From: Xylogone sp. PMI_703
Lineage: Eukaryota; Ascomycota; Leotiomycetes
Direction of reading: 5' to 3'
Length of the DNA stretch: 64,000 bases
Assembly: GCA_021399445.1 (NCBI GenBank)
Contig: JAJTUQ010000011.1
Coordinates: forward strand, 558,001-622,000
Part shown: in pieces, positions 25,993-63,060 of the stretch
Layout: each line of letters opens with the position of its first letter
How positions within the stretch are numbered: position 1 is the first letter of the stretch
Made by a program: the position numbers and the translations under genes
The notes under the pieces: model-generated
Told to the model about the DNA's origin: nothing
The model's input: only the letters and a program-made list of their open reading frames with translations
Database searches by the model: none

Positions 25993-27567
25993 ATGAGTTT
26001 GCTGTTCAAAATATCGCTCCTTGCCGTTGGCGTTTCTGCGGTACCTGCTCTTCAAGCCCGTGCCGATAATACTGCCGTCGTGCATTTAGGTACCTCGACT
26101 GGAAATCCAAAGCATCTTGCTTCTGGGTTTATATATGGAATCCCTGACAATGGGGACCAGATTCCTTCTCACTTGTAAGTCCAGCTTTAACGTCACAAAG
26201 TTCTCCAGCTCCTTCTTGCAAGGCTGAACCGAGATCTAACGTACCCGCCTGAGAGTAAAGCTGGTCAGACCTTGACATCAATGGCTGTCGCACTGGCGGT
26301 GCTCAATGGGGTGCCCCGCGTCGAGGATGGGTCTGGGGCTTGAATGAATACAAAGGCCGTTTCCAGTCGTCCTTGTCCAACTACCTCGTTTGCCGCAGTC
26401 ATGGCGCTGAAGTAAGCTGGCTGAATCACGATATCTGGGGCACAGATCACACTAATTCGAGCACAATCTGGCCTGGTGACAACGGTCAGTGGGCCAGCTA
26501 CGACGCATTTGTCCATCAGCTACTAGAGGACCTCTACGCTAATAATGCCATCGACGGTTCCGTCTACGAGATCTGGAACGAGCCAGATATCAGCATTTTC
26601 TGGAAAGGCAAGGGCGGTATGCAGCAGTGGATTAACCTCTATATCCGCACCCACAAGATCATCCGCTCTGACTCTCGCTTCGATGGCCTCAAGATCGCCG
26701 GGCCGAGCCTGGCTTTCACGCCGACCCCGGGCAATCTTTGGTGGACCGAATGGCTACGACAGATTGCTGGTAATGGCACAATCCCGGACGAGTACACCTA
26801 CCATCTGGAGGGTGCCGCGAACGATGTCAAAAATGATCCATCTTATACTAACCGTAGTCTCTCAGCTCTGCTCGCAACATACCATTTGCCCCAGAGGCAA
26901 GTTAATGTAAACGAATACGCTGAGCTTTCTGAGCAGGTACCTGCGTCTTACGCATGGTGGATTGCCGGCCTGGAACGTGTTAACTCCATTGGTTTGCTCG
27001 GAAACTGGCAAGGAGGTACTGTCTTACATGATTTGTTTGCCAACCTTTTGAGTATGTTCAAGTTTTGCCTATTTCTCTGCCCTATATTTCCACCACTTGA
27101 TGGCAGCACATTGCTGATGAGGCTAAAACGCTTTTCCAGCCAAACACTCCAACCCTCAGGACTATGCTGCGACCGATTATGCACCAGCGCCTGGTTACTG
27201 GGTTTATCACTACTATGCCACGAACATGACTGGCCATCGGGTTGCAGTTGACCGCTCTGGCGATACACACCTAGATGTCTATGCCACAGTGGGTAACGAT
27301 AGGGTCCGCCTCTTGGTCGGTTCAAAGCTGGTCACTGGCACATGGTATGTGACAATTGACGACCTTGAGGCTGTCGGCTTTCCTTCATCTGGTTCACTCT
27401 CCATCGATACTTGGGGCTTTGATGGATCCAATGTTTTTGCCGCTCAGGCGCCGCCGAGCTTCCGCAACACCGTTTCGCATGGTTACTCTGGCGGCTCTGT
27501 TACATTTCCCATCTATCAGACAGACAATCATACGGCTTGGGCGTTCGAGTTCAGTGTTAGATCATGA
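25993..27567 (+). CDS. Secreted GH39-like (clan GH-A) glycosidase, three exons
   Basis: Exons are 25993-26174, 26261-27051 and 27140-27567. The introns (86 and 88 bp) have GTAAGT and GTATGT donors, and the joined frame is 466 aa with no stop. Residues 1-24 (MSLLFKISLLAVGVSAVPAL) form a signal peptide. A TIM-barrel catalytic domain follows. YEIWNEPDISIFW carries the Asn-Glu acid/base pair of clan GH-A, and RQVNVNEYAELSEQVP carries the probable nucleophile Glu. The C-terminal third (LDVYATVGNDRVRLL, then FPIYQTDNHTAWAFEF) is a beta-sandwich as in GH39-type enzymes. It probably acts outside the cell on xylo- or arabino-oligosaccharides; the exact substrate is not known. It is the left-most gene of the hemicellulase cluster and has no CBM1. 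Confidence 0.8.
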
Positions 27568-28291
27568 GGCATATAAGTTGTACTACCCCGATGTATATAA
27601 ATATACTCGCCACTACTTCAGAACTTGGAAGCAACAAACGTATGAATATTCTCCCAATATAAATATTTACAAGTTCACTTCTGGTGGCCGTTACTGTAAG
27701 TATCCGTGAATAACTGATTAACCCATCCTTTTCTGTCAGTTGCTACACCTCATACTTCTTTATTTCATTGGGATCGGCCCTTACCATTGTCTGGCCGTCT
27801 GGTTTTATCAAATATCAAATTCTTTCCCTTATTTATCAGCATCATCTTTAGGGCTAGGGCCTGTTTCGATTCGCTTGAATTGCTCCTGAACTGAAATTTA
27901 GGCGGGAGATTCAGCCAAATCGAAACAGTTACTCCTGAATTCTCCTGAATCGATCGTTTACCTTTACTAGTAAGCTCCACTTTCTGAATCTCAATTTAAG
28001 CCTGAATTGATTTTATATGAAAACGGTAAAGTCTGACTTCAATTTCTGCTCTTGTATTGTGTTGTAGAGTTGTCTAATCTAGATTACTAGATCATAAGGG
28101 TAAGGTAAATGTCTGAGAATTGTATGAATATATAAATGTTATATTAAATATAAGTCTAAGAAATGTATTTAGATTGAGCATAAAGAGTTTACTTTTATAT
28201 TCTTATAGTATACTTATATAATAATAAATCTTTATTAGACCTTCGAATTAGACACTTTGTATTAAGTGTATAAGACAAGATATATATATAA
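27568..28291. other. Intergenic, AT-rich, with one small inverted repeat
   Basis: The only structure I see is CTGTTTCGATT at 27861-27871 with its inverted copy AATCGAAACAG at 27918-27928. The left copy is preceded by GGGC, like the ends of some PIF/Harbinger-type MITEs. The right end lacks the matching GCCC, so this is at most a damaged small element. No gene. Confidence 0.45.
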
Positions 28292-28510
28292 TGTTGACTG
28301 GAAACGCAGGAATACAGAACCACTATTGCATTGATTGCTTAAAGAGTCTACAACTACAGCAGATTCTATATATACAGAGAGTTACGGTTGTACAGGCACC
28401 CTATAGTTGCCTACATTGGTAGCCTACCGTAAACCCTATCCGTAAGCCCTAGCATAGGCAGCTGTAAGAACACTGTGAAGTGGCATCCGTAAACTCCAAA
28501 TATTGCAACA
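28292..28510 (+). repeat. Solo-LTR-like repeat, family A copy 2
   Basis: 219 bp starting TGTTG and ending CAACA, a perfect 5-bp inverted end of LTR type. It aligns with the copies at 21782 and 50255 but lacks the first about 20 internal bases (GAGGTTTTGCAATGGG). No matching target duplication is seen (TATAA left, TCTCC right). Confidence 0.65.
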
Positions 28511-29209
28511 TCTCCAGATGTAGCAGAGAGATTGTCTCAAGCCGCACTCTACATACCACGTGCCAAGTATAAAGACTTATATTAAAAACAGATACAAGGA
28601 AGTAAATAGAGTGACCGGAACGCTATGAGCTCTAGTTGGGTCATCCTTCGGCGCTAAAAGCTTATTAAATGAGGGGTCTCCGTTGTGTATAAAGTGCCTG
28701 TGCGCATGAGTTTAATAACCGCTGAAAGGCGATTCGAGCGCATATATCATAGGGTAATTGAAGCCACAAAACATGGCGACTTAATGTTCTTATTGCTGCT
28801 GGTTTAAAAGCATGCTCATCTTTTCAAGTAGAGGGTAAATGTCGTCGTGGTTACACTGCGGGGTATAAACGTGGGGGCAAACTTAGTTAACTAAAAGAAC
28901 CTGTGTCAGAGATATTGCTTACGTAATTGGCGTTGGCCAATCATAGCTGTAGAAGCTAACGGTCGGTAAAAGAGAAGAGTTTTACCGGTTTACCCCTATG
29001 TATAGTACATCATCAAGACCAGCAACGAATAGAGTCTCTGTACTATACAATTTATATGTGGAGTAGCCTAACCACTGCGCCATAACCTCTGACAACCTGA
29101 GCAGCTTACCTAAGCAAGCTCTTATTCGGACCGTCTCCTCCATGGGCATAGACTCTGTGGCTATGGTATACAATATGCTTCTCGCGTATGGCGGCAATAA
29201 CAATCTTTA

Positions 29210-29215
29210 GGCTAA
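29210..29215 (+). promoter_or_regulatory. Possible XlnR-type site (GGCTAA) upstream of GH27
   Basis: GGCTAA, 240 bp before the start codon, fits the GGCTAR core bound by the fungal xylanase regulator XlnR. A single hexamer of this kind is expected about once per kilobase by chance, so the assignment is weak on its own. Confidence 0.35.
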
Positions 29216-29356
29216 TACACCGCACCATGCACACCACGGGAGGCAAACGCATCGATTCCATCAATTAGACGTTTTAACATTTATGAGGTATTGTTATTAT
29301 TATTCGTTAGCAATGTTTCCCCTTCAGCGTAGAGCATATTTACCCGAAGCAGCTGA

Positions 29357-29363
29357 TATAAAT
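29357..29363 (+). promoter_or_regulatory. TATA box of the GH27 gene
   Basis: TATAAAT lies 92 bp before the ATG at 29455. Confidence 0.5.
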
Positions 29364-29454
29364 ATGCTGTGATGAGATCGAACTGGTGCCGATATCAAAT
29401 CCAACATCGTGAACTGCTCATGACAGAAAAGCAAACCATCACAAATATGAAAAT

Positions 29455-30998
29455 ATGCGTTCCCAAATCCTTATCCAGGCTGTCGTGAGCTTTGTTTGTA
29501 TCGTTAGTGGAGCTCCGTATATCGAGAGGAGAATTTCCAACGGGGTAGGCAGAACGCCAGCTTTAGGATGGAACAGTTGGGTAAGTTGTCGAGTCCACGC
29601 CTGCATTTAAAGTTGAAGTGGCAGGCAGAGCTGATGCTGGGTAAATAAGAATGCCTTTGGCTGTTCCGGTGCTTCAGCATCATCAGCTCTTACAGCTGCT
29701 AACCAACTCGTCAATCTCGGACTTAAGCAACTCGGCTATGAGTATGTTAATATTGACGATTGCTGGTCTCAGCAGCAGCGTAATGGTTCTGGCTATCTCG
29801 TGCCTGATCTAACCAAATGGCCGAATGGCATTCCAGCAGTTGTGGACAAGATTCATGGCATGGGTCTGAAATTCGGTCTATATGGAGATGCTGGTACTAA
29901 AACCTGTGCTGGCCATCCCGGCTCACAGGGCCATGAGCAGCAGGATGCGGACTTGTTAGGAAGTTGGGGCGTAGACTATTGGAAGTACGACAACTGCTAC
30001 ACTGCCTGCAACGGAGAGAATCCAGTTCCACAGACATGTTGGATCCCACGAGATTCGGAGGCGTGGTACACCACTTTCGGAAATTACTTGAAAGCCGTCA
30101 GCCATCCAATATTGTATTCGCTATGCTCTTGGGGTCTCGACAATGTTTGGACTTGGGGTGGATCAGTAGGCAACTCTTGGAGAATGCATTCTGATATCTC
30201 TAATGAGTGGTCATCGATTGTCGCAATTGCGTCGACAGCGGCGGGAATTTCGCAGTATGCCGGCCCTGGAGGATTTAATGACTTAGATATGATGGTACGT
30301 ATTCGCCTAAGCGTGGTGGGGAGAGCTAAATCTTCTAGGAAATTGGTAACGGTGGTCTCACAGAGGCTGAGGAGCGAGCGCACTTTGGCATCTGGGCAAT
30401 AGCAAAATCACCCATCATTCTTGGAACCAACCTTGCTTCCATTCCATCCTCGTCTCTCGCTATTATTAAGAATGCAGTATGTATATGACTTGTCTCATGT
30501 TGTTCGATGCTAAAGAGATATTCATAGGACATTCTCTCCATTAACCAAGATTCTCTTGGCAAAGCTGCCAGCTACTTCGTCCCTTCCGGTGCTTCCCCTC
30601 CTGTGTCCGGCCGCCTCTACCCGTACTGGGCTGGCCCACTCAGCGATGGTGTCGTGATTGGGATCGTAGCTGCAGACGATGCCGGTAGTTTCAATGTTAA
30701 GTTCGCCGATGTGCCGGGGTTAGAGCAGGGAACATACGGTTGGAAGGAGCTATATAGCGGCACTTCAGGTTCGGGTACCGGCATATCAGTAACCCTAGGA
30801 ACACACGACATGGCTATCTATAAGGTTACGAAATCGGGTACAGCGCCCGCAACTACCACGTCAGCACCAACAGGTATGCCTGCCGGTGTAGCCCAAAGAT
30901 ATGGACAATGTGGTGGCAGCGGCTGGACGGGGCCAACGACTTGTGTTAGCCCGTACACGTGCCAAGTTTCGAATGAGTGGTATTCCCAGTGCCTCTAA
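29455..30998 (+). CDS. Secreted GH27 alpha-galactosidase with C-terminal CBM1, four exons
   Basis: Exons are 29455-29580, 29650-30294, 30339-30476 and 30528-30998; the three introns are 69, 44 and 51 bp. The frame joins to 459 aa. Residues 1-20 ([20 protein letters not shown]) are a signal peptide. The GH27 barrel starts at [14 protein letters not shown] and continues with [14 protein letters not shown] holds the nucleophile Asp, and SWRMHSDI holds the probable acid/base Asp. A beta-sandwich domain follows, then a Thr/Ala/Pro linker and a full CBM1 ([20 protein letters not shown], ending WYSQCL). It would release alpha-galactose from galactoglucomannan or arabinoxylan side chains while bound to cellulose. 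CBM1 on GH27 is less common than unlinked GH27. The gene looks intact. Confidence 0.93.
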
Positions 30999-31753
30999 TA
31001 GCCAAGGCCCCGTGCTACGTACGGAAGATATCTATATCTTATCTACATAAATAATTCCAAGCCATATACATGCCTTTTCCATGAGGGACGACCATAATAA
31101 TTGGATCACATCTGAACAATTCGTGAAATGCACCTCCCAAACCGTTGCACTATAGACACGATATCACCCTTGAACCGGAGCATGTGTTTATGCCATATCT
31201 CACTGGCAGAGAACTGTTGAGGCTAGTCCAAAACATTGGGCCTTAAACTTGAGAATCCTAACCTGAATCTCCAAAGCGTAATGATCCGACCGGGCATCAT
31301 TGCTAAGCTGTAATCTTACAATTAAACCACAGAACTCCCTATAACTTAGATCCACAGTCCTTCGAAAATCAAGATGTACAGTATACTGATATCGTTGTAT
31401 GGCTCAGCTTACAACTCCATGCGGCGGCCGACTCACCGTTTGGCGTCTGCGCCTCTAGTACACAGCGCATATACTATTCCAGATTTACTACATTTGTCCC
31501 CTAAATCTCGGCCATTCTCGATTCATTCTCGTGGCCGCAGGCAAAATATGTGAAATCCAATTATTCCCACAGTCTACAAACGCTAGGCTATGGAGCTCCG
31601 CTTCCGCTGCTTTTGTGAATCTGAGTGGGCACACCTAGCTAATCCCGCCACATCTCTAACACCCAGGCTTCGAACCGACCGTAACCTCTGCGGCGGTATT
31701 CTTGGCCTTTTTGATATTCGCCGCGACTCATTAGCGTAGGTTCCGTAGCACGA
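30999..31753. other. Intergenic, no gene recognised
   Basis: 3' region of the GH27 gene followed by sequence with no recognisable frame or repeat. Confidence 0.5.
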
Positions 31754-32652
31754 CTACCGCTGCGGCGTCAGCACACCCGGCCGGTAAGGCAACAGGTCGT
31801 AGCTGCCGCCAGAGTCGGTGGCTCGTCCCTGGTAGAGGAATCGCAGGTCGCACGGATCAATTGCCATTGTCTGATCGGGGTTATTTCGAACAAGGTCGCC
31901 ATGGCTAATGTCATTAGTCTAGGTCGCACCGCTATTAGCTTTACTAGTAAAAAAAAGGGACTCGCTAGAAGTTTGTTGTGTCCATGAGCCATTCAGTCCG
32001 GTCGATACATTCAGTATCAAATTCACTAATACTTCTAGAGAAGAGCGGTTGCACTGATGACCATTTAATTGCATTAATAGAATCACTTGACGTTCGATAG
32101 GAAAACGTTGTGGGTCCCGATTGATATGCGAGTACTCAGACGTCTTTTGGGAAGAAGTAGAAGAGTGTGGGTACGACGCTGGCCGACCTCATCCATTCTG
32201 GCTCATCGAGCTTATATCATCCTAGTTAGAGAAGAGATTGAAATTCATAAAGCCGTAATTAGACCCCGTGTTATAGTCCGACACATAACGAGATGTTGGC
32301 CATTATAGACAACATTGGTGAAGTCCTTTAGGGAGACCCAGCCTGATTTCGGGATCGTTAGCGGCCCGGTCGATGTTCAGTGGTATGTGCATACAGCTGT
32401 GGCGCCTGCCGAGGTGGAGCTTGCTTGCGTTGTTCCACCTCCGGTACATGGAATACATTGAGAATTGTATTCATTAGAATAGTTGCAGCAGGCGCCAGAT
32501 ACGCGAGTGGTTGGCCCAGACCACGCAGCTCCACCACCTGAACGACTAGCGTTGTACAGAAGTGTATTCTACTTACATTGACCCCACAGGGCTGATTGAG
32601 CAGATACAACCAGCGATAACGCCGCAATCAACACGGCTACATAATGAACCAT
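31754..32652 (-). pseudogene. CBM1-GH62 alpha-L-arabinofuranosidase pseudogene
   Basis: From ATG 32652 the minus strand reads a signal peptide (MVHYVAVLIAALSLVVSAQS) and LWGQC. A short GT-AG intron of about 39 bp follows, then the rest of a CBM1 ([23 protein letters not shown]), a Gly/Thr/Ser linker and VCTYH, with a stop where GH62 begins. Beyond the stop GH62 pieces are clear but in different frames: [31 protein letters not shown], then, after a large internal deletion, [33 protein letters not shown] and [13 protein letters not shown]62 enzymes remove arabinose from arabinoxylan. The deletion removes much of the beta-propeller, so the gene is dead. Its place between live hemicellulase genes shows that the cluster once had one more debranching enzyme. 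Confidence 0.85.
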
Positions 32653-33602
32653 GGTAAGAGTTTGCCGTCAACAAGCCTGGAGAACTGTACACGTCCTACA
32701 TTTTACCTCCTATATTTATATTATTACTACGGCTTCGAACTAGTTCATGTTTATGCCCGGTGGTAAAATTCCGGCGGTAAATTGGTTCTGGAAGAACACG
32801 AGACGACAGTTACAGCGGAGCGCCTGGCCTGCAAGGTTCTTCCTCATCAGACGTGCAGATCCTCAAAGCATTGATTTGCAGAGTCTCGGCTACACGTAAT
32901 AAGTATATTAGATGGTGTATTAGCGCACCTATTATCTGTGCAGATTTAGAGTTTAGCATATATCGTAAGGTCAAGAACGTCATCACATGTCTAGTGTTTT
33001 ATCATCCGAGCATTCAGCATTTCCGGGTAGAAGATTCCCTGGGTAATTGGATAGCACATTTTGCATTTCATCTCAATCACACCTTCATTTACACCATATC
33101 AAACAGCTTATTTGAACTATGGCCAAATTTTGAGAAACCGATGAAGAAGACCTCATAGTTCCCTCTTTGTTGTGCATGTGGCGGGCAAACATCCTCGAGT
33201 ACCAAGGGGAAATTTTAGCCTACGCCAACTGCGTGGGTTAACAGACCAGAGAGAAGGGCTTCTATCTAAAGTTTTAGGACTCTAAGTTGCATGGATCCTA
33301 TAAATCCTAAATACTCATCCTAAGCAACACACGGCATATATCCCGGCGGCCTTAGCTCAAACTCACAGCACGGAACATAGGCACGCATTTCAACAGCTAT
33401 ATTTTCTCTGAATTTGAATAGAAACCATGTTGAATCGAAAGGACATCGCTCTTCTAATGGCGGATTTGGTTAGCACAGATATGCTATAATTGCTCCATAC
33501 AAACAAAGTCCTAAGCGGAATGCCCTTTCTTCTTTGTTTACGCAAATACGCCCTCTTCGAATTTATACCAACGCCATCAATAATCAACAGTCCTGTCGAT
33601 GC
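32653..33602. other. Intergenic, no gene recognised
   Basis: The left end is the former promoter of the GH62 gene (TATATTTATA near 32711). A 101-codon frame at 32853-33158 matches nothing I know. Confidence 0.5.
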
Positions 33603-34686
33603 TTAAGATAGCAGGCTCACGATGGCATTATAGGCGGGCTTCGGTTGGTAGTTGCCATCGAACAGCAGGGGGTGATCGCCAGATCTCCACGAGTGCTACA
33701 ACACGTAATCAGCTTGGTTTTTTTATGCCGTTTGATATCTCTCGGTCTGCGACTTACTGCATCGCTTGTACCCCAAGTAGTAATCCCAACGCATTTTGGG
33801 ACCTGTAAGCAGGCATTGGTAACGGCAACGTAGTCATTCGGCGGCGCGTTGGTGATATCGAGCTCCGTTATAGCTACTTCGGACACGACGGCGCTCAATG
33901 CTTGAAGGGCACCGAGAGTGCCCGATGAACCGCCCGCTCCAAGATGGCTTTGCGAGCCGATGCCATCAATAGGGACTCCAGCGGCTATCCAATTTTTAAC
34001 ATGAGGCACGATGCCATTGGCAACTTTGCCATAGCTGGCACTGTCGAGGTTATAGTCGTTAATATAGAGTTTAGCGTGAGGATCGGCCTTCCGAGCAGCG
34101 TTGAAGGCAATAGAAACAAACCGGTCTCCTAGCACCCGGCTAAAGACAGAGTCGCGAAGTGAGCCGTCCTCATTGAAGATCTCGTTCACGACGTCCTATA
34201 TCAGGCTCAGCTCAAGAGCATAACATGAGGAGGGGTTACGCATACCCATGCATAGATCTTTCCAGCATATCTGCCGGCAACGGTGCTGACGTGGTTCTCA
34301 ATTACTTGAGTAAGCTCATTTGGGTCTGAGATAGCAGATACCCAGCTAGGGAGTTGCGCATGCCATAGGAGATTATGGCCACGGATGACCAGGCCGTGAG
34401 AAGTAGCGAACTGGACGAACTGGTCCGCGCCATTGAAATTAAACTTTCCCCGAGAGGGCTCTGTCGCATCCCATTTCATGCTGTTCTCCGGCGTAACGGC
34501 ACCGAAGTCAGCTATGATAGTATTGGCATCTTGAGTGTTGGCAATATCAACGGGATCGGTTATGGAACCAAAATAATGCTTCCCTTTGGCCTTGAACAGC
34601 TGGTTAATGCTTGCCAGCTGGCTCGCGAGTGGGCTGCCTGAGACTAGCGTCGCCGCTAATAGAGCTATAATTGCTGTTTGCTTCAT
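33603..34686 (-). CDS. Secreted GH10 endo-beta-1,4-xylanase, three exons
   Basis: Exons on the minus strand are 34686-34246, 34195-33758 and 33695-33603. The introns are 50 and 62 bp (GTATGC and GTAAGT donors, TATAG and TGTAG acceptors). The product is 323 aa, the normal length for a single-domain fungal GH10. Residues 1-17 ([17 protein letters not shown]) are a signal peptide. The barrel shows [49 protein letters not shown] (acid/base Glu across the first intron), [23 protein letters not shown] (nucleophile Glu), GITTWGTSD and the usual end [20 protein letters not shown]. It cuts the xylan backbone between substituents. There is no CBM. The gene is intact. Confidence 0.95.
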
Positions 34687-34773
34687 GGTAACAAATTTTA
34701 AAGGGCACTGAAAAGTTGCGAATAGATGGATGAGTGATGAACGAGTTGAGATACTTGTGACTGAGCTCGCACA

Positions 34774-34780
34774 TTTTATA
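34774..34780 (-). promoter_or_regulatory. TATA box of the GH10 gene
   Basis: TATAAAA on the minus strand, 88 bp before the GH10 start codon. Confidence 0.5.
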
Positions 34781-34910
34781 CTACACAAAATGCTACTCTT
34801 CCATAATAGCCTCAACTCTGGATAATTATCCCGTAGAACGCGGAAGTGATGTTCGAAGTAAATAGCTCAGTGCTGATCGAAGCACATTATCCGTCAGCGA
34901 CGAGAGTTGA

Positions 34911-34916
34911 GGCTAG
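34911..34916 (+). promoter_or_regulatory. Possible XlnR-type site (GGCTAG) upstream of GH10
   Basis: GGCTAG, about 225 bp before the GH10 start, fits the degenerate GGCTAR core. GGCTAC follows 17 bases later. Weak evidence alone. Confidence 0.3.
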
Positions 34917-35757
34917 CAACGGAAGTGGCTACTATGAGCGGAAATTCCAAATATTACTATCCTGGGAAACAATCACACTTACTGTCTGTTTGCTTGGCAG
35001 ATGAGAAACATGGCTTTGCAAATTATGCTGGCAAGGATAGAGTTGTAGTGTAATATATTTGCTGCTTGGCACAGAGCAGGTTATTATATCGCGACTTAAT
35101 CTCGAGGCTTACCGTTGGTTTTTACTGGATCGTAGTGTACATCTACCGGGATCTTGGAAGTCTTGTATTAGAATTGCTATGGCATTAATCGAGCCGCACC
35201 ATGCCCATTCCCCCCCTTGTACTCTATTATTATACTGGCTCTATATTCCCGAATGGCATCACACGTTTATTCGCGCGCCTATATGGTGGCATATTTTGCT
35301 TCTCCACATTTGGGCTTCGATGTCTCTGGGGTGCAGGCATCCCGCGCCGATCCCCACGATGCCTACCTTCCTTCAGTGGAAGAATATTTTCATTTTCTGC
35401 CGTATTTCCGGCAGTGGAGGCGTGAAGCATTGGCGGTCCATTCCGGCTGTTGTAATATGGTGTAAACTCTTCTTTAATGATATGCGATACAACAATACCC
35501 TCAGTATTAGGATGAATTTTTTTTTTTGTCCCGATTAAATTTCTATACAATATTCGATATTCAGTAATATCGTTCTATAGCATATACATGACTGTAAATG
35601 CTGCATAAAGTATGGTATAAGACAACATAATTCATAAATATGAAACACAAAGAGTTTCCGCTTGTATATCTTTAGGCTCCTACCTGGGGCAAGACCCTTG
35701 GCTGTGCCCCGCCCCGGGGGGAAGGCGGGGGGCCAGCATACTCGACCCATAGCGATC

Positions 35758-35902
35758 TGTCGCATAGATTACGGTCTGTAAATGCAATTGATGATGGATG
35801 GTTGTGTATTCAGGAGTGTAAGCTATGGAAGACCGTTATATACGATGAAATAGGGGTTCGGCATTTACCGGCGCTACAGTACAGCCACCGTATTATGCAA
35901 CA
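35758..35902 (+). mobile_element. 145-bp TG..CA element (solo-LTR/TRIM-like), copy 1
   Basis: The element starts TGTCGCATA and ends TATGCAACA, inverted repeats with one mismatch, and is flanked on both sides by CGATC (35753-35757 and 35903-35907), a perfect 5-bp target duplication. About 90 percent identical to the copy at 39834-39977. It has no coding capacity. The TG..CA ends and 5-bp duplication suggest a very short solo LTR of a retrotransposon or TRIM. Confidence 0.85.
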
Positions 35903-36142
35903 CGATCCAAAGAGTCCCGGTCGGTGGATAGTCCTTCTGTTACTCCGTACAGTACTTCCTCTCTTATTATCTCAAGCCGATTGATGTTTGTAGGGAGATA
36001 TCGGACCGGGTAGTCGTGATTACCAACAGTGATGAACCAGTAAGTTAAAGAGTTCATATTTATGACTTTATATACTTCGATCTAGTTTCTCAATTCCTTA
36101 GCACCCTAAGATTACATAGATACCCACCGCAGCTTTCTATTC

Positions 36143-40284: not shown

Positions 40285-40999
<715 letters not shown>

Positions 41000-51739: not shown

Positions 51740-54700
51740 ACATGGGTGCCAGCCTGCGGCTCACACGAAGCCTTCGAAATTCCATAAAATGTTGGAGAAT
51801 CTTAGAAAGACATGTTGGAATAATCCGTTGATAATGGTCAGTGAAATTGATAAAGTTTCAGGTATGAGTGCACATCCATGTAAGCGAACACGTGACAAAG
51901 GATTAAGAGCCATCAGTTGGAGTCACATGAGACGTTAACTGTAGAAAGAATTGACCATAGAGATGAACAGCTTGTATAAAGAATTACATCTTAAGAGAAG
52001 ACAGAACTCTATTATAATATACGTTTTCGTTGGGTAATAGGGCTATTATTCAGGCTTGATGAGGCAGAAATACCAGCTTGCAACATGAAACAGGAGGCAA
52101 TAATTACAGCTAAGCGTAACTATATCACAAACCTCGCAAGAAATGCCTCAAAAGGAAGAAAAAAACAACATATCATGTTTCTGATAATTTAAGTCGAATT
52201 ACGAAGCAGACATGATACACGATATAAAACGAAGAATGAAACTGGAAGGAAGAGACTCACTCCACAAGCCATAACTGTATCACAAATCTCTCAGGAAATA
52301 CCTCAAAAGTAAAGAAAAAAAGGAATATATCATATCTCTAGCAATTTAAGACGAATTGCGAAGCAGACATACACGATGCAAAACGAGGAAAATACTGCGT
52401 GTTAAGAAAGTTGTTTCATAGGCTAGTATGCCTCAGTTCCAAAGCTCTAAGCCAGGAAAGCTTGACGCAAACTTAAGATTATGAACCAAGAGAACTCTCC
52501 CACAAACTTATTGTTTGCTGTTCCAAAGCCTCAAGTCGGGACAGTTCCACTTGGAGATCCGTATGAGGGACAAATGATGCGTCTTTAAGGGTGATCGGCT
52601 CTCGCAACCAGACCCCCGACAAGGATTTGACCCTGCCAAGCTGGACATTGATCGAAGTCCATTTGCCATGCTGGTCAACGCCACGCTGCTTACCAAATAG
52701 AAGATCTAGGATGAGGCTGTCGAACGTACTACCCTGGCTCTTATAATCGGTGAAGGCGAATCCAAGCGTCAATGGGACCTGATGTCGGTAAAACGATAGG
52801 CCTGGTATGCTAGGGATCTCACCTCTCATCTGTACCGGGAAGACAGGAACAAGGCCGTCGGGAATATTAGAGAATGATTGGCTGTGATCATGTGTAGGTC
52901 GAACAAGGACGCATAGCGGAGGAACTGTACATAGAATGAACTGGGCATCGAGTTCCATCCATGAAGCTATCCACATTGTTAGCATATCAGACATGCAAGA
53001 AAGATAACTATTTATGTACCTCGCACGTCTGTATCTAGGATGGCTTCTTCGGCAGTCCCCCTCATACCATTGACCAGGCCAGCATATGTATTCGTATTCT
53101 GTTGCAGCATAATTGGCATACCCTTCGTAAAGGCAAAGAAGCCGGGGCCTTTGAGATATCCTTGCTCACCGACCTGGTATATCATCCTGAGCAGCGTAAG
53201 GGGATCCAAATTCGTGCCGGTAGGTGCATCGTGTCTGGCAGGGAAGAGATAGATCTTCTGACCTCGTTTTTTGGCAAACGCTTGGAGATGTTCAAGGTTG
53301 GCTTCTTCGCGTATGCGATTGAGTCGTATGATGGCCCTTTCTGGTGGAGTCTCCCCATTTGCAACTCTGTTTTCCATAGTACACGAATTAAGAGTAGCAA
53401 CATCGTCCTCGGTCAAAGTAGCGGACCGCGCTCTCTGAAGTAAATCCTGAAATGCCGGATCTTCTGCCTAACGCATCTGCTCCGTCAGGAATACTACTTG
53501 AGTAAAATGACTCCAGATAGATTTTCCTGACTGCAGGACAGCAATATCGTTGATAGTCTGGCTCCATATAGCGTGGCCGCGGACTGGTTTGAACTGGTTA
53601 AAATCTCCTAGAAATATGACGACAGGTAGCCCACCAAAAACTGTATCAGACACCCGATTCAAGTCCCAGATAGCATTACACCGATCATTGATCTGGACCA
53701 GGTTCTCGAGACTAACCATACTGGTCTCGTCGAGGATGAAGATCTTCTTATGAGAAAGTCTAGACTTCGTTGCTTGACGAAGAGGCTGGTTTCCATTCTT
53801 GCCAAATCCGAGAGCGGAATGGTAAGTGGCGCCGTTGACATTCGCAGCAGCCGCACCAGTTGAAGCGGTGAGTAGGACATCATCATGCTTTCGTATTATC
53901 AAGAGGCCAAACATAAAAGCCTTGATAAGATGAGTCTTGCCAACTCCCCCAATACCACCAAGATAGAGCAAGAACTGATCACGGACAGAATTGATCTGAA
54001 CGGGATGTAGAATACGGAGGAATAGGGCCTTGATGACCATTCGTTGCTTTTGGTTTAGAGGGTACTGGCTAGTGATCAGAGCTAGCAAATTTTCTATGGA
54101 TGAATCGGCCTGAAATGAAGCTTGTAAATATCGCAAAGACGCCATAGATTCTGTGCTGTAACCAAGAACTGGAACGAGAGCAACTTCCGGTCCGCCTCTA
54201 TCAAATCCAGTGGAAACGGCGATATCGATGTCGGCGTCGCCGTCGTCAAAATCTGACTGTTCTCGATCTTTAAAGGCCTTCGACTCTTTGAACCAAGTTT
54301 TAACTAGAGAGCTAGGCATAAACTGGGCACCAAGCAATGGGGGGTTCCGGGAAAACCGCAACGAAGAGAGGCTATCAGTAGTAATACCAGGGAAAGCTAA
54401 AGCAGCCTGAAGTAGGCTGCTTTCTGTTGGTTCAAGCGTGGCAAAGTCGAATCCTACATTAGCTTCCTCGTCATCGTTATATATCTCATGGTCTACAGCT
54501 TCAAGATAGTCATCAAACTCTATACCGCGCTCCTTCCTGTCCTGATCAGCTGCTTCTTTGCTCCGTCGCAGAAGCATGACATTCTCTGATAGCTGGACCA
54601 GATACGGAGGGAGAGACGGGACAATGAAGTTCCACAGCCACGTGTTTTTGTATTGTGCAGCACGGAGAGATGCTATATGGTTACTTCGAAAGCCTTGAAG

Positions 54701-57700
54701 CTTATTCCATGGGAAGAATAGGCCGAGTAGAACCTCGTGTATCTCATCTTGAGTCTTTAGTGTAGTATCGAGAATATCATTATCCTTCTCTGACATAGAA
54801 GTAAAACTGCCACATAGAGAGGGAGTCTTTAACGACTTTAGGGAACTGACGGAGACTTGGAGATGAGTCGTATGTAGCGGGTGAGAAGGATCAAACGGAA
54901 AACGGAAGGCTCGATCCTTAGCGCCTTTAAACGTCTGCACGAATATCTGGGACGCATATTCATAGAAACATAGATGAGCCAGTCGGGCGCCTCGATGTTC
55001 GTAGTTCTCGTATATGGACGGGCGGCGAGTACGACCGTCAAAGTTAACGTACTGATTTGCGGTTTCTGGTATTTCCTCAGAGCTAGTCTCGTCTAACAAG
55101 GCGTTCAGAACCCTCCGGAAGTGTATCTTGACCCAGTAAAAATTGATCGTGACGGACCTGTCGCTCTTTGGAATATAAGCAGACGGTTGACCTAGCAGGA
55201 AGTGAGCCACAGCTGGGGCGCCAACCTCGACATCCCTCGTAAAGCGATTATAGGCCTTCAGCGCGAATTTAGACATATCAAGGGGCGGTGGAGCTGGTAG
55301 GCCGGCATCCTCAGCGGCTGCCGCTTCGGCCGTCTCTTGGGCCTTCTTCAAGACAGCGGCAGCTAGTACAAGCTGGCCTCGGTCAACCTGAGCTTTAGTC
55401 GCATAGTTTGTCATGTAGTAAACGGCGGCAAGGACTTTGGGAGACGACGGGGTGAAGTTAACGTCATGATTGCATCTTATCGCAGACGCGATGGCAGGGT
55501 TGTACTTGTTCACATATTGGTGATTCCTCTCCATCCGTATATAGCCCTCTTCCGTAACCATAGATTTTGGAACAAGCGGTCTTGGGAACAGAAACCTGCA
55601 TATCTGCGAGAGTGACTGCCTCTGAATATCTGAACATTGCAGAGCGTCGTCAGTGTCCGTTGCCATTCCTTCACTCTGAACAATTGGAACCGAGCTCGCT
55701 TTTGTACGTGACCTTGGACCCTTCTTCTGGTATTTGGTACAGGTCTTGCTATGAATGTGCATCTGGACTCGGGCCGCCACATTATTCGAGTCAATATCTA
55801 GAGCCTCCTGGAATTCAGCCGGGGTCATATCTTCTCGTAAAGTAAAAACGGATGTACCAGGAGTCTCTGATTGGAATTGCTGACCCAGACTAATATCTAC
55901 CGTCTCTCTGACTATTGAGCGGACATAAGAGATGACTCGCTCCCTGAATCCAGGGTCGGACTTTAATCTTTGATATAAATTTGCGGCGCCAAAGTTCCCA
56001 GCGAGCCAGGCAAATCCGTGTAGGTGCAGCATCATCCGTGTCGTCGACTCGACTATCCCAAAATGAGAAGTCACCGTACCGAAGACCCCAGGCTCCCTAG
56101 ATAGCGTCTTGAAGAAGCAGCTAAAGAACGAGGTCACGACGACATGAAAGAACTGGGCGACGAGACTTGGATTCTTGATCGTGAGCTGTAAGATTCTTGA
56201 CTTAATATTAGGTTCATCCAGCGAGATCTCTTCGCCAGCAAGTCTGACCACAAAGATATTACCAATATCTTTAGGGTTAAGCGTGAACCAAATAAGCGGT
56301 AGTCCAAGACGGCCAATCTTGCCGAAGATCAGGTTCCTGAATTTCATCTTCTCTCCAAAAGACTCTGGATTGAATGATGATATTATTCTCATATTAGTGA
56401 TCAGACTATGGATAGCAGGGTTCGAAATCTTCTTCCCGTCATTAAATTCCTCCGCCGCCCGTTGGAGATCATCGGCTGACAGTCTAGCAAGGTCCTCAGT
56501 AGCTTTGGCCCAATAACCGTTCTTGACCTGGACGTAGTTCCCAAAAGAAGCTTGTCGGATAAGTATTAAATCGTAGATATAAAACATAAAGGTATGGTGT
56601 TGAGAGAAGCTATAAATATTAGAAAGACGGAATAGGAAGTATGGAATACCTACAGTAGCGAATGGTGAAGCATAGCATATTTCGCAAAGGCCTTAAGAGA
56701 TACCTCCTCTGGGCGGTTTCCATTCACATCGCCTAGATGGCCGCCAATACCAAACGGAAACAGAGTAAGGAAGGCTGCCGTAAAATAATCTGGGTCAGTA
56801 AAGGCATTTATGAGCGGTAGTTCTTGTGTCGTCTTGTAAGATATATGTAGTGGCCAAGATTTATCGTTTAATATCCCCCCTTCATCATCATAGTCATCGG
56901 TAGTATATTCTTCGCCTGGGACCGAGCCGTCTGAATCCTGCTCTTGAAGAATTGCCTGGAGACTTGCCAAAGCAGCAGGAGTAGAGTGAAGATCTTGACC
57001 ATGAAGATCGGAGAAATAAGACCGGCTGAGAATACTACCAGGCTCAGCGTCTCCTACTTCTGCATCTAACTCGTTCTCAAAAGCCCCATCCCGTAACGAC
57101 GTAGCATAACCTTCCCGCTCGTCTTCTACCGGAGTATCTGTCGAACCAGGCTCAGGACCCAAAGTAATAAAGGCGTCTCTAATCTCTTGAGGAATGTGAT
57201 GATCAGGCCAAGAGTCCAAAACGGGATAGTCTATAGTCACCGATTTGTAGACGGGATTATTAGCACAGAGCCATAACAAAGCATTCAGAACCTTCGCTTT
57301 ATCAACAGAGCAGAAGCGAGCAAGATTCTCTTCCGACGGCGGGGTTCCCCGATCCCAGCTAACGGTAATAGTTGTGTGATCTTGTAACCTCTTAGCTGGT
57401 AAGATTCTTAAAAGGCTACTTGGATCCTGTCTCACGGCCACGGAATGGCCACGGCTGCCCCTATAACTCATACCACTCTTGGCACCCGACGTAAGTTTTA
57501 GGAATACACCGATGACGTGAACTCGTGCAATGAACGCCTCTTCGACAGTATTAAGATTCTTCAGAACTTCTGGATAGCCTTGACAAAAGAGACAATTGAC
57601 AAAATTAGCGGCTGAAAATAGAGGTATAGCCCGTTTCGCGATCGCAGAGTTACAGGTAGTACACAGGCTAACCGAATCGTCCTTGACAGCGCAACAATCA

Positions 57701-58937
57701 GGTTCCGTTTTCGTTTTTTCAAAGAAGTATACCAAATTCGCGTCTTGGAGGCTGATGCTGAGCACCTCCTCTTCTTGGAACAACCCCCCACATAGCCCGC
57801 AAGGTAGGCGTCTTGAGGCATCTGATATGGCCTTTTGGTAGGTCTTCATACACGACATCTGAATTGATGGGGTAATCTCCTCTGGGAAAGTGGTCGATGC
57901 TTGCCTCATGTACTGATACTCCTCATCTAGAAAAGACGGAATTGGACCGTCGTAAGCAATGATCCGCTGTTGTGTAAGTGATTCCCGCTTATTTTTTCGA
58001 GCTTGGGTAATAGCCTCGTGGTGTAAGTGGGCTCGCATTCCAGCGTCATCTCGGTGCTCCCTGTCCCTGCGACGCTCTTCTTCTTGCTGATGAAATCGGT
58101 CTTCTCTATCCCTACGGCGCTGTTCATCTTGCTGGATAGCCAGCGCTTCCTTCCGCTCTCGAACTGACTTACTATGGTTGGATACCTTTATAGACCGTCT
58201 CTTTCTCCGTTCTTCTTTCTCAATTCTTTGCCTTGTAAGCCGCTGTTCTTCTAACCTCCTCCTCTCTACTACTGTCTGCTCAAGTGCCCGAACCTTCTTT
58301 CTCTGCTGCTCAATCTCCGCTGCTAAGTTCCGTGGGCTTTTAGGACCATCTTCTTGCCTCGTAAGCTGTGAATCATTTAATTGTCATCTCTCCGTTATTG
58401 CATTTTCAAATGCTTGGATTCTCTGGTTCTGCCGTTCAGCCCTCTCAGCCAACCTCTGCCGGTTGCGCTCAAGCGCCTGAACCCTCTCTATCTGCTGCTC
58501 AACCCTCTCTATCAGACTCTGCCGGCTTATCAGTTCATTATCTTGAGAAATAGGTGCAGTAGGGATAAAGTTAGTAGGAGGTAGCATAATAGCGTCAAAT
58601 TAACAACAGAATAACTAAGTCTGAAATCAAAGTAAATGACTAAACTATAAAGCAGCAGACACAACTAGTTATACAGCTGAACACCATCCTCCCCCATCCT
58701 ACCAAAATTAAAAAAGAAAATACTGAAACATGATTGATGCTGAAGATGAAGCACTAAGTAAAACATGCACGTCCTTCGATCGACAATGTATTATTTCATC
58801 ATTGATACCGCAATCCCAAGGCAGAAACACGTGCCCCAAAAAAAATCGGATCTCGGAGAAACTAAAGACCGAACCCTCCGCACTCTCTCTCTTCGAAGAT
58901 CCTTCTCTCTGAGCTTTTCAGCTCATTTCGAAGGCAA
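51740..58937 (-). mobile_element. Helitron, about 7.2 kb, near-complete
   Basis: The element reads on the minus strand. Its 3' end (left, 51740-51780) has a hairpin (AGCCTGCGGCT) and its 5' end (right, about 58905-58937) another (GAGCTTTTCAGCTC). Each hairpin is next to one arm of an 11-bp inverted repeat, GCCTTCGAAAT at 51770-51780 and its inverse at 58925-58935. The boundaries were set by comparison with the second copy at 58943-60673: sequence identity starts at ACATGGGTGCC on the left of both and stops after CGAAGGCAA on the right of both. It carries one RepHel gene. Paired short inverted repeats at both ends recall the Helitron2-type end structure. Confidence 0.85.
52479..58587 (-). pseudogene. 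Helitron RepHel protein (Rep plus PIF1 helicase), two nonsense codons
   Basis: Exons on the minus strand: 58587-56654, 56609-53020 and 52966-52479. Introns are 44 and 53 bp, and the joined frame is 2004 codons. Residues 1-185 form a charged coiled coil. Cys pairs (LPCGLCGG, CTTCN, CLFCQG; about 260-330) look like the zinc-binding DUF6570 region. The Rep nuclease has its HUH motif in MMLHLHGFAWL (about 840) and the tyrosine pair in VYYMTNYATK (about 1042-1047). The PIF1 helicase has Walker A LGGIGGVGKTHL (about 1533), Walker B FILDETSM and the C-terminal FAFTDYKSQGST. Only two defects are seen: TGA at 58384-58386 (relatives likely CGA) and TAG at 53468-53470 (likely CAG). It mediates rolling-circle transposition. 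The gene is very close to intact. Confidence 0.88.
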
Positions 58938-58942
58938 TTTCG

Positions 58943-60673
58943 ACATGGGTGCCAGCCTGCGGCTCACACGAAGCCTTCGAAATTCCATAAAAATGTTGGA
59001 GAATTCTTAGAAGACATGTTGGAATAACCCGTTGATAAGTGTATGGTCAGTGAAATTGATAAAGTTTCAGGTATTCATCCATGTAAGCGAACACGTCACA
59101 AAGGATTAAGAGTCGTCAGTTGGAGTCGCATGAGACGTTAACTGTAGAAAGAATTGACCATAGAGATGAACAGCTTGTATAAAGAATTACATCTTAAGAG
59201 AAGACAGAACTCTATTATAATTTACGTTTTCGTTTGGTAACGGGGCTATTATTCAGGCTTGATGAGGCAGAAATACCAGCTTGCAACATGAAACAGTGGG
59301 CAATAATGTAAGGCTTGGTGTCCTAACCGTAATTGTATCACAAACCTCGCAGGAAATGTCTCAAAAGGAAGAAAAAACAATATATCATGTCTCTTGACAA
59401 TTCAAGTCGAATTATGAAGCAGACATGATACACGAATATAAAACAAAGAATGAAACTGGATGTGAAGAGATTTATTCCACAAGCCATAACTTTATCATAA
59501 ATCTTTGAGGAAATGCCTCAGAAGTAAAGAAAAAAGTAACATATCATATCTCTAGTAATTCAAGTCGAATTACGAAGCAGACATGATACACGATGCAAAA
59601 CGAAGAATGATACTACGTGTTAAGAGAGTTGCTTCATAGGCTAGTATGCCTCTGTTCCAATGCTCTAAGACCGGAAAGCTTGACGCAGACTTAAGATTAT
59701 GAATTAAGAGAACTCTCCCACAAACTAATTGTTTGCTGTTCCAAAGCCTCAAGTCGGGACAGTTCCACTTGGAGATCCGTATGAGGGACAAATGATATGT
59801 CTTTAAGCGTGATCGGTTCTCGCGACCAGACCCCCGACAAGGATTTGACCCTGCCAAGCTGGACATTGATCGAAGTCCATTTGCCATGCTGGTCGACACC
59901 ACGCTGCTTACCAAAGAGGAGATCTAGAATGAGACTGTCGAAGTGCTACCCTGGCTCTTATAGTCAGTGAAGGCGAATCCAAGCGTCAAGGGGACCTGAT
60001 GTCGGTAAAACGACAGACCCGGTATGGTAAGGATCTGTCCTCTCATCTGCACTGGGAAGACAGGAACAAGACCGGTGGGAACATTAGAAAATGATAGGTT
60101 GTGTTCATGTGCAGGTCGAACAAGGACACATAGCAGAGGAACTGCACATAGAATAAACTGGCTGTCAAGTTCCATCCATGAAGCTATTGACATAGTTAGC
60201 CAGATATGCAAGAAAGATAACCATTTAAATACTATACCTTTCACATCAGGATCTAAGATAACTTCTTCGGCAGTGCCCCTCATGCCATTGACCAGGCCCA
60301 GTATATGTATTCGTATTCTGTTGAAGCATAATTGGCATACCTTTTGTAAAGGCAAAGAAGCCTGGTCCTTTGAGATATCCTTGCTCACCGACCTGGTATG
60401 GAAGCTATGGATTCTGTGCAATAACCAAGAATTGGAACCAGAGCAGCTTCTGGGTCCCTACATTCCTGAGACACTCCCTGTATAAAGAAGAAAATCACAT
60501 AAGGATCTTACATTACCATCAGGTAAGGTTCACGTGAGGATAAAATCTGACAAATTACGGGTTAGATTTTCACCGTTCGGAAAAACTGACCCACCCTCTC
60601 TCTTTTTTTTTTCTCCCTTTTCTCCCTCTTCGAATCACCTTCTCTCTGAGCTTTCAGCTCATTTCGAAGGCAA
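58943..60673 (-). mobile_element. Second, internally deleted Helitron copy in tandem with the first
   Basis: Sequence from 58943 repeats that from 51740 nearly base for base through about 60398 (equivalent to 53180 in the first copy). It then jumps to sequence equivalent to about 54143 for some 60 bp, then to unrelated or 5'-leader sequence, and ends with the same right terminus (ATTTCGAAGGC at 60661-60671). Only five bases separate it from the first copy, and both have the same orientation. The deletion removes most of the RepHel gene, so it is non-autonomous. Confidence 0.85.
59698..60398 (-). pseudogene. Remnant of the RepHel helicase C-terminus in Helitron copy 2
   Basis: This corresponds to residues near the end of the RepHel helicase in copy 1: LVNGMRGTAEEVILDPDVKG, ASWMELDSQFILCAVPLLC and LGFAFTDYKSQGST are preserved. 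A two-base deletion near 59942 shifts the frame after SQGST (copy 1 continues FDSLILDLLFGKQ). The N-terminal Rep and Walker motifs are absent because of the internal deletion. Confidence 0.75.
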
Positions 60674-60895: not shown

Positions 60896-61290
60896 AATAA
60901 GTCCTTGTCTTACCCGAGAGCGGCTCGACTGCCCTAACGCTCGTCTCCACAATCCTGAACGTAATGGGTGATTTGCTCGCCGAAGTCTCGAAACGATTCT
61001 CAACCGTCGGCGTTCGACGGAGCTATCGTCCATTTCCTAGCCCTGTCTATCCTGTAGATCAATCGCCTGCACTCCCATGGATTGTTTTCTCACACCTATC
61101 TTCCAATCATGAAAGCTATGGATGACTCTAAAACCCAGCTGGATATTGGAGGTCACTCCTCAGGTTAGATATCACCTAAGCTCGCGGGGGGGATTTAACC
61201 GATCTGGGGGTTAATCTCTCATTAGCTCCAGCTTAGAGCTCGACTCCACCAGGAGCCACCATTCATCCTGTGTTAACGCCGCTTCTGGGG

Positions 61291-61307
61291 TATATACAGT
61301 ATATATA
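61291..61307 (+). promoter_or_regulatory. TATA region of the MFS transporter gene
   Basis: Alternating TATATACAG and TATATATA words about 135 bp before the ATG at 61438, followed by a pyrimidine-rich stretch with TTCACTTCTTCC. Confidence 0.4.
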
Positions 61308-61437
61308 TGCTACCTAGATCCCATTCAAGTCCCTATTTCACTTCTTCCAGAAAACACACTTACCATTTCCTGCTGTTCTTTTTTTTGTTTTTGAAGCCGC
61401 TACACCTCGTTAAACCAACCCTCAATTTCTTTGCGAG

Positions 61438-63060
61438 ATGGCAGCCGAGGCTGATGACATAAAAAACGAGAGCCAACATGTTGAGCTCACGACGATGAAC
61501 ACAGACGCTGACGACGCGACCCGCCACTGGATTGGTTCTGCGGAAGATGCCCGTCTGGCCACCGAGGAGGAGCATCGCATGACCATCCTCAGCGCTATCA
61601 GGAAGTACCCAAAGGCCTGTCTCTGGTGCATGGCTATCTCCTTGACCATTATTATGGATGGCTATGACGGGGCCCTGCTGGGATCGCTCTCTGCGTTTCC
61701 TTCATTCCGGAACCACTTTGGCGAGTACATCAACCCTAAATCCGGTTCTCAGATTCCTGCCCAGTGGCAGCTCGCCCTTGGCTGCTCCAGCCCAGTCGGA
61801 AATATCATTGGAATATATTTGGGCGGCATCACAACGGATAGGTTCGGCTACAAGCGGTCCTTGTTGATCTGGTTGGCTTTCTTGACTGCGTGTATTTTTA
61901 TATCTTTCTTTGCCGTATCGATCTCTGTCATCTTTGCTGGAGAGGTTCTTTGTGGCCTGTCTTGGGGAGTGTTCGCGACCATGGCCCCTGCATACGTTGC
62001 TGAAGTCTGTCCGGTCGTGTTGCGTGGTCTCATGGAAATCTGGGTTACCATGTGCTGGGGTATCGGTCAGCTTCTCTCATATTCTGTTCTCCTCACTCTC
62101 AACCACGAGACGTCGATGTGGGGATGGCGCATCCCTTTTGCTGTTCAGTGGGTATGGCCAGCCATTATTATTCCCTTGGCTCTCTTTGCCCCTGAGTCGC
62201 CATGGTGGCTTGTCCGCAAGGGCAAGGCTGTTGAGGCTGAAAACTCGATCATGCGACTGACCAGCAAAAACAACCGAGAGGGTGCCCGACGTGCAGTGGC
62301 ATTGATCGTTGAAACGAACAATCTCGAGAAAACCATGCATGAAGGTGCTGGATACATCGACTGCTTTCGTGGCACCAACTTATGGCGAACCGAAATCGCG
62401 TGCTGTGCCTGGGCAAGCCAGTTGTGGGTCGGGTTTGTGATTGCATCCTATTCAACTTACTTCTTTGAGCTGGCCGGCCTCAATCCTGCTGACGCATACA
62501 AAATGAGTGTGGGCCAAGGCGGTCTGCACCTTCTCTTCGACATCATCGCAATTCCGGTGGTTGCTACAGTTGGTCGGCGTCGCATGTTCCTTTGGGGGTT
62601 TGCCGTTATGAGTCTCTTCATGTTCCTGATCGGATTTGTTGCACTTGCGCCCGAGACCCCCGGTGTTGGTTACGCATCTTCATTCCTTTTCTTAGCCTGG
62701 AATTGTACCTATCAGACGACTGTTGGACCTGGGGCTTACATTGTGGTCAGTGAGGTGTCGTCTTCTCGACTTCGCGCTAAGACTGTGGCTTTGGCAAGAA
62801 ACGCTTACCTTCTGTCTATTTTGATCAATTACTTTGTCGGCCCCTATATCCTCAATCCCAGTAAAGGAAACTGGAAGGGCAAGACAGGTTTCCTGACTGG
62901 CAGCATCATCGTTCTTTGCTGGATCTGGGCCTGGTTCCGTCTTCCTGAGACTAAAGGTCGCACTTATGAGGAGCTGGATATCTTGTTTTCGAAGAAGCTC
63001 AAGACACGTGAGTTCAAGAATTATCCTGTTGATGTTGTAAGTCAAAAGTGCACTGAGTAA
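61438..63060 (+). CDS. MFS sugar transporter (alpha-glucoside/hexose permease type)
   Basis: One exon, 540 aa, from ATG 61438. About 60 cytosolic residues precede 12 membrane segments (first: CLWCMAISLTIIMDGYDGAL). Family signatures are complete: GGITTDRFGYKR between segments 2 and 3, PESPWWLVRKGKAVEAENSI after segment 6 with a long charged loop, VGRRRMFLWG between segments 8 and 9, and PETKGRTYEELDILFSKKLK at the cytosolic end. Overall layout resembles fungal maltose/alpha-glucoside:proton symporters of the MAL31 group, but members of this group also carry other sugars, so the substrate is open. It would sit in the plasma membrane. It lies 12 kb right of the GH54 gene across two Helitrons. 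It is intact and may serve uptake for the enzyme cluster; that link is inference. Confidence 0.9.
   Translation: MAAEADDIKNESQHVELTTMNTDADDATRHWIGSAEDARLATEEEHRMTILSAIRKYPKACLWCMAISLTIIMDGYDGALLGSLSAFPSFRNHFGEYINPKSGSQIPAQWQLALGCSSPVGNIIGIYLGGITTDRFGYKRSLLIWLAFLTACIFISFFAVSISVIFAGEVLCGLSWGVFATMAPAYVAEVCPVVLRGLMEIWVTMCWGIGQLLSYSVLLTLNHETSMWGWRIPFAVQWVWPAIIIPLALFAPESPWWLVRKGKAVEAENSIMRLTSKNNREGARRAVALIVETNNLEKTMHEGAGYIDCFRGTNLWRTEIACCAWASQLWVGFVIASYSTYFFELAGLNPADAYKMSVGQGGLHLLFDIIAIPVVATVGRRRMFLWGFAVMSLFMFLIGFVALAPETPGVGYASSFLFLAWNCTYQTTVGPGAYIVVSEVSSSRLRAKTVALARNAYLLSILINYFVGPYILNPSKGNWKGKTGFLTGSIIVLCWIWAWFRLPETKGRTYEELDILFSKKLKTREFKNYPVDVVSQKCTE

Follow-up and report, generated by a model that had tools for sequence, protein, structure and literature searches.

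The 64,000-nucleotide stretch analyzed here (the window) covers positions 558001-622000 of contig C3 of Xylogone sp. PMI_703, a Leotiomycete with a genome of 50.1 Mb in 25 contigs (C1, C3, C4, C20, and C24 are the contig labels of this analysis). Within it, 23.4 kb hold six intact hemicellulase genes (GH39-like, GH27-CBM1, GH10, GH43-CBM6-CBM1, GH11, and GH54-CBM1, as hand-built gene models) and two relics, GH62 and CE1 (Table 1). A first-pass annotation, made from the sequence alone, had described eight arabinoxylan carbohydrate-active enzyme (CAZyme) genes in about 23 kb, two of them relics, with a sugar transporter 12 kb further on, no unrelated host gene between the first and last CAZyme, and transposon-rich gaps, and all of this was borne out. 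Specifically, i) Pfam confirmed GH27+CBM1, GH10, GH43+CBM6+CBM1, GH54+CBM1, and the Sugar_tr transporter where they had been placed, the last beginning 12 kb beyond GH54; ii) GH62 and GH11 were recovered by hidden Markov model (HMM) searches across the whole genome; iii) both relics contain in-frame stops; iv) no unrelated host gene lies between the CAZymes among the selected open reading frames (ORFs) scanned with Pfam; and v) a Mutator-like element (MULE), an element with terminal inverted repeats (TIRs), and a solo long terminal repeat (LTR) lie between the genes, with Helitrons beyond GH54 and a hAT remnant at the left edge. The annotation erred in taking the host for one of the Eurotiales, and in its estimate of extent: the island reaches far outside the region described.

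Identity at every residue links the spliced GH27 model to the public Xylogone sp. PMI_703 alpha-galactosidase. The GH39-like gene keeps its qualified name since its Pfam GH39 score (24.7 bits) falls under the cut-off of 26; its PDB matches to GH39 beta-xylosidases are weak (30 bits or less). PDB relatives of the transporter, a member of the major facilitator superfamily (MFS), are glucose transporters and a D-xylose/H+ symporter. With N-termini judged by eye, the island enzymes appear to be secreted. In the CE1 relic, the central Ser of what we take to be the nucleophile motif reads Gly. GH54 carries a CBM1 (window 48177-48295) where CBM42 is more usual. To the left of the GH39-like gene, minus-strand ORFs at window 23649-25257 have no Pfam match; they look to us like a fungal STAND-type N-terminal domain and may be an ordinary host gene.

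Table 1. Features of the window, in window coordinates.
Feature	Position	Strand	Remarks
hAT-type transposon remnant, left window edge	240..2433	+	Dimer_Tnp_hAT in 1783-2430
CGGNTAAW	25653..25660	-	340 bp upstream of GH39-like
GH39-like glycosidase, intact	25993..27567	+	3 exons: 25993-26174, 26261-27051, 27140-27567; spliced model 466 aa
Solo LTR, high-copy family	28904..29095		C3/C4 duplication breaks inside
Segment duplicated on C4:483698-499259, with indels	28944..50002		blastn, 92-98% per aligned piece
CGGNTAAW	29339..29346	-	116 bp upstream of GH27
GH27 alpha-galactosidase, C-terminal CBM1, intact	29455..30998	+	4 exons; Pfam and spliced model
99.6% C3/C4 tract	29944..31443		GH27 and 0.45 kb beyond; neighbors 97-98.4%
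GH62-CBM1 relic	31766..32600	-	two in-frame stops, both also in C4 copy
Near-identical tract, 99.6-100% C3/C4	33444..37443		covers GH10, spacer, most of GH43
GH10 xylanase, no CBM, intact	33603..34686	-	3 exons; Pfam; model 323 aa
CGGNTAAW	34886..34893	-	200 bp upstream of GH10
GH43-CBM6-CBM1 arabinofuranosidase/xylosidase, intact	36143..37693	-	1 exon; Pfam
CGGNTAAW, three sites (37852, 38108, 38393)	37852..38400		upstream of GH43
Segment collinear with C1:800331-804126	40182..44841		GH11, spacer, CE1; DNA 86-90%
GH11 xylanase, no CBM, intact	40285..40978	-	2 exons; genome-wide HMM search; model 214 aa
CGGNTAAW	41108..41115	-	130 bp upstream of GH11
660-bp element, 122-bp TIRs	41258..41918		absent from C1 at corresponding site
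CE1 (Esterase_PHB) relic	44020..44600	-	in-frame stops
MULE insertion	44842..47686	+	transposase 45751-46986, FAR1 domain 45228-45683; absent from C4, C1 copies
Segment related to C20:836292-838491	48091..50253		GH54 and flanks; DNA 72-82%
GH54 arabinofuranosidase with CBM1 replacing CBM42, intact	48177..49349	-	1 exon
Helitron	51740..58383	-	PIF1-like helicase, Helitron_like_N, DUF6570; copy at C4:509206-515607
Second, partial Helitron copy	58943..60399	-	
CGGNTAAW	61194..61201		244 bp upstream of transporter
MFS sugar transporter, open frame intact	61438..63060	+	Pfam Sugar_tr 289 bits

Chance can be excluded as the source of the grouping. The seven families are represented by 55 loci in the whole 50.1 Mb, fragments and relics counted (HMM exon matches merged by hand); C3:588-606 kb has seven loci of seven families, all inside 20 kb, and C4:484-501 kb has seven loci drawn from six families, the two groups being copies of each other and hence not independent. 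In 200,000 random placements, which ignored contig structure, the largest group numbered 5 and was reached once. The locus thus shows what defines a fungal CAZyme gene cluster, an excess of CAZyme genes over chance with a CAZyme at both ends.

To the left of the window, C3 carries a transporter (533.9-535.5 kb), a GH141-like gene (536.8-539.8 kb), an aldo-keto reductase (540.7-542.1 kb), a GH31 gene (542.5-544.7 kb) with a strong match to alpha-xylosidase MeXyl31, a second transporter (546.3-548.1 kb, its 5' end assumed), and a transcription factor (550.8-553.1 kb); the first transporter and the GH141-like gene owe their assignment to counterparts on C4, of which the GH141-like one matches BT_1002. 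Counterparts of four of these flank genes occupy C4 456.8-468 kb in inverted orientation, followed by a counterpart of the regulator (69% identical), GH36, a second regulator, and then the duplicated core. Beyond the core, C4 has an intact GH62, a CBM1 beside an esterase (PF00756, presumably a feruloyl esterase), GH3, a two-ORF gene without Pfam match that we liken to GH93, a GH43 with GH43_C2, and GH95. Fungal_trans was the only domain found in the regulators. Roughly 15 kb beyond the C4 island, a Zn_clus regulator gene sits close to UbiD and flavoprotein genes (C4:552003-558348) in a group that we take to resemble the Aspergillus sdrA-fdcA-padA decarboxylase group; the island esterase might release ferulate. 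Further out are a reducing polyketide synthase with short-chain dehydrogenase/reductase (SDR) and cytochrome P450 genes, likely a secondary-metabolite cluster (C4:567055-581328), and, distal to the island on both contigs, another collinear duplication, which contains Helitron-like ORFs for a PIF1-like helicase (C3:627983-637835 and C4:591269-598276).

The C3 and C4 copies have diverged unevenly. The four intact core genes GH27, GH10, GH43, and GH54 have open frames in both, the GH10 ORFs being 100% identical in protein; GH11 is missing from C4, where the alignment has a gap; and the flank proteins are 69-98% identical. Computed in 500-bp steps, DNA identity stands at 97-98.6% in spacer to the left of GH10, rises to the near-identical tract over GH10 and most of GH43, falls to 97.4% to its right and then to 92.9-95.5% as far as 39676, and lies at 89.5-94.6% in the CE1 segment and at 94.6-98.8% in the surroundings of GH54. 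The tract at 33444-37443 is the mark of gene conversion or later exchange, because identity drops from 99.6% to below 96% within about 1 kb and the tract includes a spacer; since that spacer is equally near-identical, slow change of coding sequence alone fails as an explanation. Gene conversion is also possible for the GH27 tract. GH62 most likely died before the C3/C4 duplication, because the two relics have two in-frame stops in common, unless exchange spread the dead copy. A 132-bp direct repeat (95%) flanks GH43 (window 35758-35889 and 39834-39965), its second copy within a stretch absent from C4. Repeat-induced point mutation was considered as the cause of the relics and set aside: C-to-T before A makes up 25-33% of transitions in the three blocks, no strong bias in a count uncorrected for dinucleotide content.

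Beyond this pair of copies, segmental duplications seem to have made the island a mosaic. The GH11-CE1 segment is collinear with C1, and the C1 match picks up again past the MULE (47640-47821); the GH54 segment is related to C20, where the order is GH54, then GH62 and GH11, and the GH54-GH62 order recurs on C4. Because the join between the C1-like and C20-like segments is present in both C3 and C4, it is older than the C3/C4 duplication. The C20 GH54 has no CBM1 match, and its alignment to the window GH54 omits most of the CBM1 stretch; since the homolog in Oidiodendron maius carries CBM1, this suggests loss on C20. A 472-bp piece 98% identical to the window GH54 lies within about 3 kb of MULE-end-like sequence at C24:430073-430544, perhaps a recent transposon capture.

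The first-pass annotation had also offered assembly by transposons as a possible origin. Of the three copies of this part, only the one on C3 has the MULE, and the TIR element is missing from C1 at the corresponding site, so these insertions, whose order can be read, came after the genes were already neighbors (C4 lacks the GH11 stretch, and the state of the TIR site is therefore unreadable there). The solo LTR belongs to a family with at least 37 other copies at 95-98% identity (from the 40 scored among 122 candidates), several paired about 5 kb apart like full elements; in the hAT remnant, the ORF at 240-1847 has no Pfam match and resembles C4 ORFs adjoining a hAT-domain ORF. As to telomere proximity, no TTAGGG/CCCTAA was found in the outermost 1.5-2 kb at either end of C3 or C4.

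A shared promoter motif supports control of the island genes in common through an XlnR/AraR-type activator. In Aspergillus oryzae, according to passages of PMC6486530, XlnR prefers CGGNTAAW and AraR prefers CGGDTAAW; we used this A. oryzae consensus, four motifs being tried first on the window promoters, and took gene starts outside the window as the first ATG of the open frame or set them by hand. CGGNTAAW occurs 7 times upstream of the six intact window genes (P 0.002, 2000 draws) and 0 times downstream; 10 times in 7 upstream kb of the enzyme genes found only on C4 (1.7 expected; P printed as 0.000, 2000 draws); 9 times in 7 kb of the flank genes (1.7 expected, P 0.001, two sites being counted twice in the common GH31/aldo-keto reductase promoter); and once in 6 kb of six control genes (1.5 expected, P 0.73). 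Among 10,080 letter permutations it ranks first, with 27 occurrences in 21 kb against a mean of 4.9, or about fivefold, and 15 of 21 island genes have at least one site, the promoter pattern of an XlnR/AraR regulon. GGCTAR is somewhat enriched in the C4-only set (10 versus 4.8, P 0.02).

We consider it probable that the locus is a hemicellulose-utilization island of which the window is the arabinoxylan half, with assembly, exchange, and co-induction along the following lines. Smaller hemicellulase groups would have been segmentally duplicated to form the island, and the whole island then duplicated; gene conversion between the copies would keep the two versions of GH27, GH10, and GH43 similar, with GH62 and CE1 left to decay; and an activator of the XlnR/AraR family would induce the genes together on xylose or arabinose freed from the polymer. 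GH10 and GH11 would cut the xylan backbone, GH43 and GH54 strip arabinose, and GH27 galactose, with the MFS transporters importing the released sugars. Clustering would be an effect of duplication, perhaps also of selection for linkage, and control would act in trans as in other fungi, with no operon. The original suggestion of a locus resembling a polysaccharide utilization locus (PUL) is partly supported, as regards a coherent set with transporters and regulators; that the set functions as a unit is something we infer.

Several observations weigh against this interpretation. No CGGNTAAW lies within 1 kb of GH54, GH62, GH3, GH95, or either transcription factor (6 of 21 genes); circular shifts of the gene set reached the observed count in 110 of 20,000 cases on C3 and 50 of 20,000 on C4, less extreme than the other tests; and GGCTAR, the other XlnR-type motif, occurs 6 times upstream and 6 times downstream of the six window genes, and in the window promoters neither it nor GGCWWWW nor SYGGRG reached significant enrichment (P 0.26, 0.12, and 0.07). 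Identity is high throughout the left core (97-98.6% even in spacer), which makes the GH27 tract weak evidence for conversion. The O. maius homologs of GH54 and GH43 are on different contigs. Targets of XlnR are scattered in other fungi, and because of this the motif is no evidence that clustering itself matters. In Trichoderma reesei, passages of PMC4812632 describe CAZyme clustering as generally without impact on expression.

A rival that we would put somewhat short of even is an ordinary, loose CAZyme-rich region, produced by repeated duplication in a transposon-rich, fast-evolving compartment, with linkage unselected, no function as a unit, and any co-regulation like that of scattered XlnR targets. 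Such regions are already known (passages of PMC4469458, PMC3562324, and PMC4812632), 2 of the 8 window enzyme genes are relics, GH11 is absent from the second copy, and GH43 and GH27 are seemingly on one contig in just 3 of 9 other named species or strains, one pair being 269 locus tags apart. For GH54, the same-contig proxy agreed with that for GH43 or GH27 in 0 of the 8 cases matched up by eye (GH54 has CBM1 in just 2 of the 8). This proxy, which takes the longest contig per protein cluster for species picked by eye from top-120 lists, is a weak substitute for synteny. A loose region sits less easily with a substrate-coherent set, with transporters, reductase, and transcription factors in both copies, and with GH27, GH10, GH43, and GH54 frames that are open in both. 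We lean against the opposite extreme, and entertain it only tentatively: a self-contained polysaccharide-utilization island of about 90 kb, with arabinoxylan and xyloglucan side-chain enzymes, transporters, intracellular sugar metabolism, and its own regulators, mosaic-built, and in two copies exchanging sequence by gene conversion.

Horizontal transfer of the whole cluster from another fungus or a bacterium is improbable, whatever the origin of single genes. Over 364 residues, the flank GH31 (C3:542550-544739) shares 74% identity with a protein from an Oscillospiraceae metagenome-assembled genome (Clostridia) and is probably a bacterial gene, and an mBio study (PMC11708051) lists Xylogone sp. 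PMI_703 among the ten fungal genomes richest in prokaryote-derived genes. Against transfer of the whole, the nearest named relative of GH54 and GH43 is O. maius (90% and 85%), GH27 is nearest to other Leotiomycetes (68-73%), GH39-like, GH27, GH10, and GH11 have introns, and paralogs of parts of the cluster exist elsewhere in the genome. More improbable still is a giant cargo transposon (Starship) that assembled or moved the cluster: the surroundings are transposon-rich, copies lie on two contigs, and the genome has DUF3435 genes, but no captain (DUF3435 at one end, reading inward) was found, the nearest DUF3435 on C3 (425508-426661, minus strand) being about 157 kb from the first window enzyme gene and reading away, and the sole one on C4 (36.9-38.2 kb) being separated from the island by about 420 kb; nor does a flank block inverted relative to the core between copies look like one moved unit. 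An assembly artifact, with C3 and C4 as alleles or a false duplication, is scarcely credible: core gene order is the same in both, but 500-bp steps of the core diverge by anything between 0 and about 10%, flank proteins differ to the extent given above, the flank block stands in opposite orientation, and either side holds genes that the other lacks.

Fungal CAZyme clusters are already known, and what is notable in Xylogone is the size, the coherence, the two copies, the conversion tract, and the shared motif. Among the matches listed (titles and abstract openings), literature on Xylogone, Oidiodendron CAZymes, CAZyme clusters, and fucose/xyloglucan clusters yielded no description of this locus, and a search for fungal "hemicellulase gene cluster" no paper on fungal loci by title. 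The wider questions are whether fungi put together PUL-like units directed at plant polymers and whether regulation benefits from linkage. With two diverged copies, related segments at other sites of the genome, and a shared motif, assembly order and the effect of linkage on induction become testable in one strain, as does the contribution of gene conversion to preserving useful enzymes as others degenerate.

Known clusters bring different CAZyme families together, as here, with 2-13 genes in 3.6-175 kb; one includes MFS sugar transporters and some are co-induced on xylan, cellulose, or straw. Unlike them, the Xylogone island serves one substrate group, has a diverged second copy that matches the first almost perfectly in some tracts, is full of transposons, and shares an XlnR/AraR-type motif. 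The loose clusters of T. reesei are likewise a non-random grouping, with at least 3 CAZymes per cluster and 71 CAZyme genes in 20 clusters, and their location is described as pointing to no specific function (PMC4812632); the Xylogone island has more genes, closer together, with transporters and transcription factors. The flank block, with its regulator, GH141-like gene or GH95, transporter, and aldo-keto reductase, resembles the FUR1-linked L-fucose neighborhoods, where a Zn2Cys6-type regulator has genes for alpha-fucosidase, permease, and oxidoreductase in its vicinity; in T. reesei, however, the L-fucose dehydrogenase is an SDR, and the passages on FUR1 mention no arabinoxylan core such as the Xylogone island has (PMC12370193). 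No SusC/SusD pair, the strict mark of a bacterial PUL, was among the ORFs scanned with Pfam, and the genes stand singly instead of in operons, every one having a promoter to itself and several of them introns; yet, as in bacterial PULs, the enzymes for one polymer group adjoin transporters and regulators for it.

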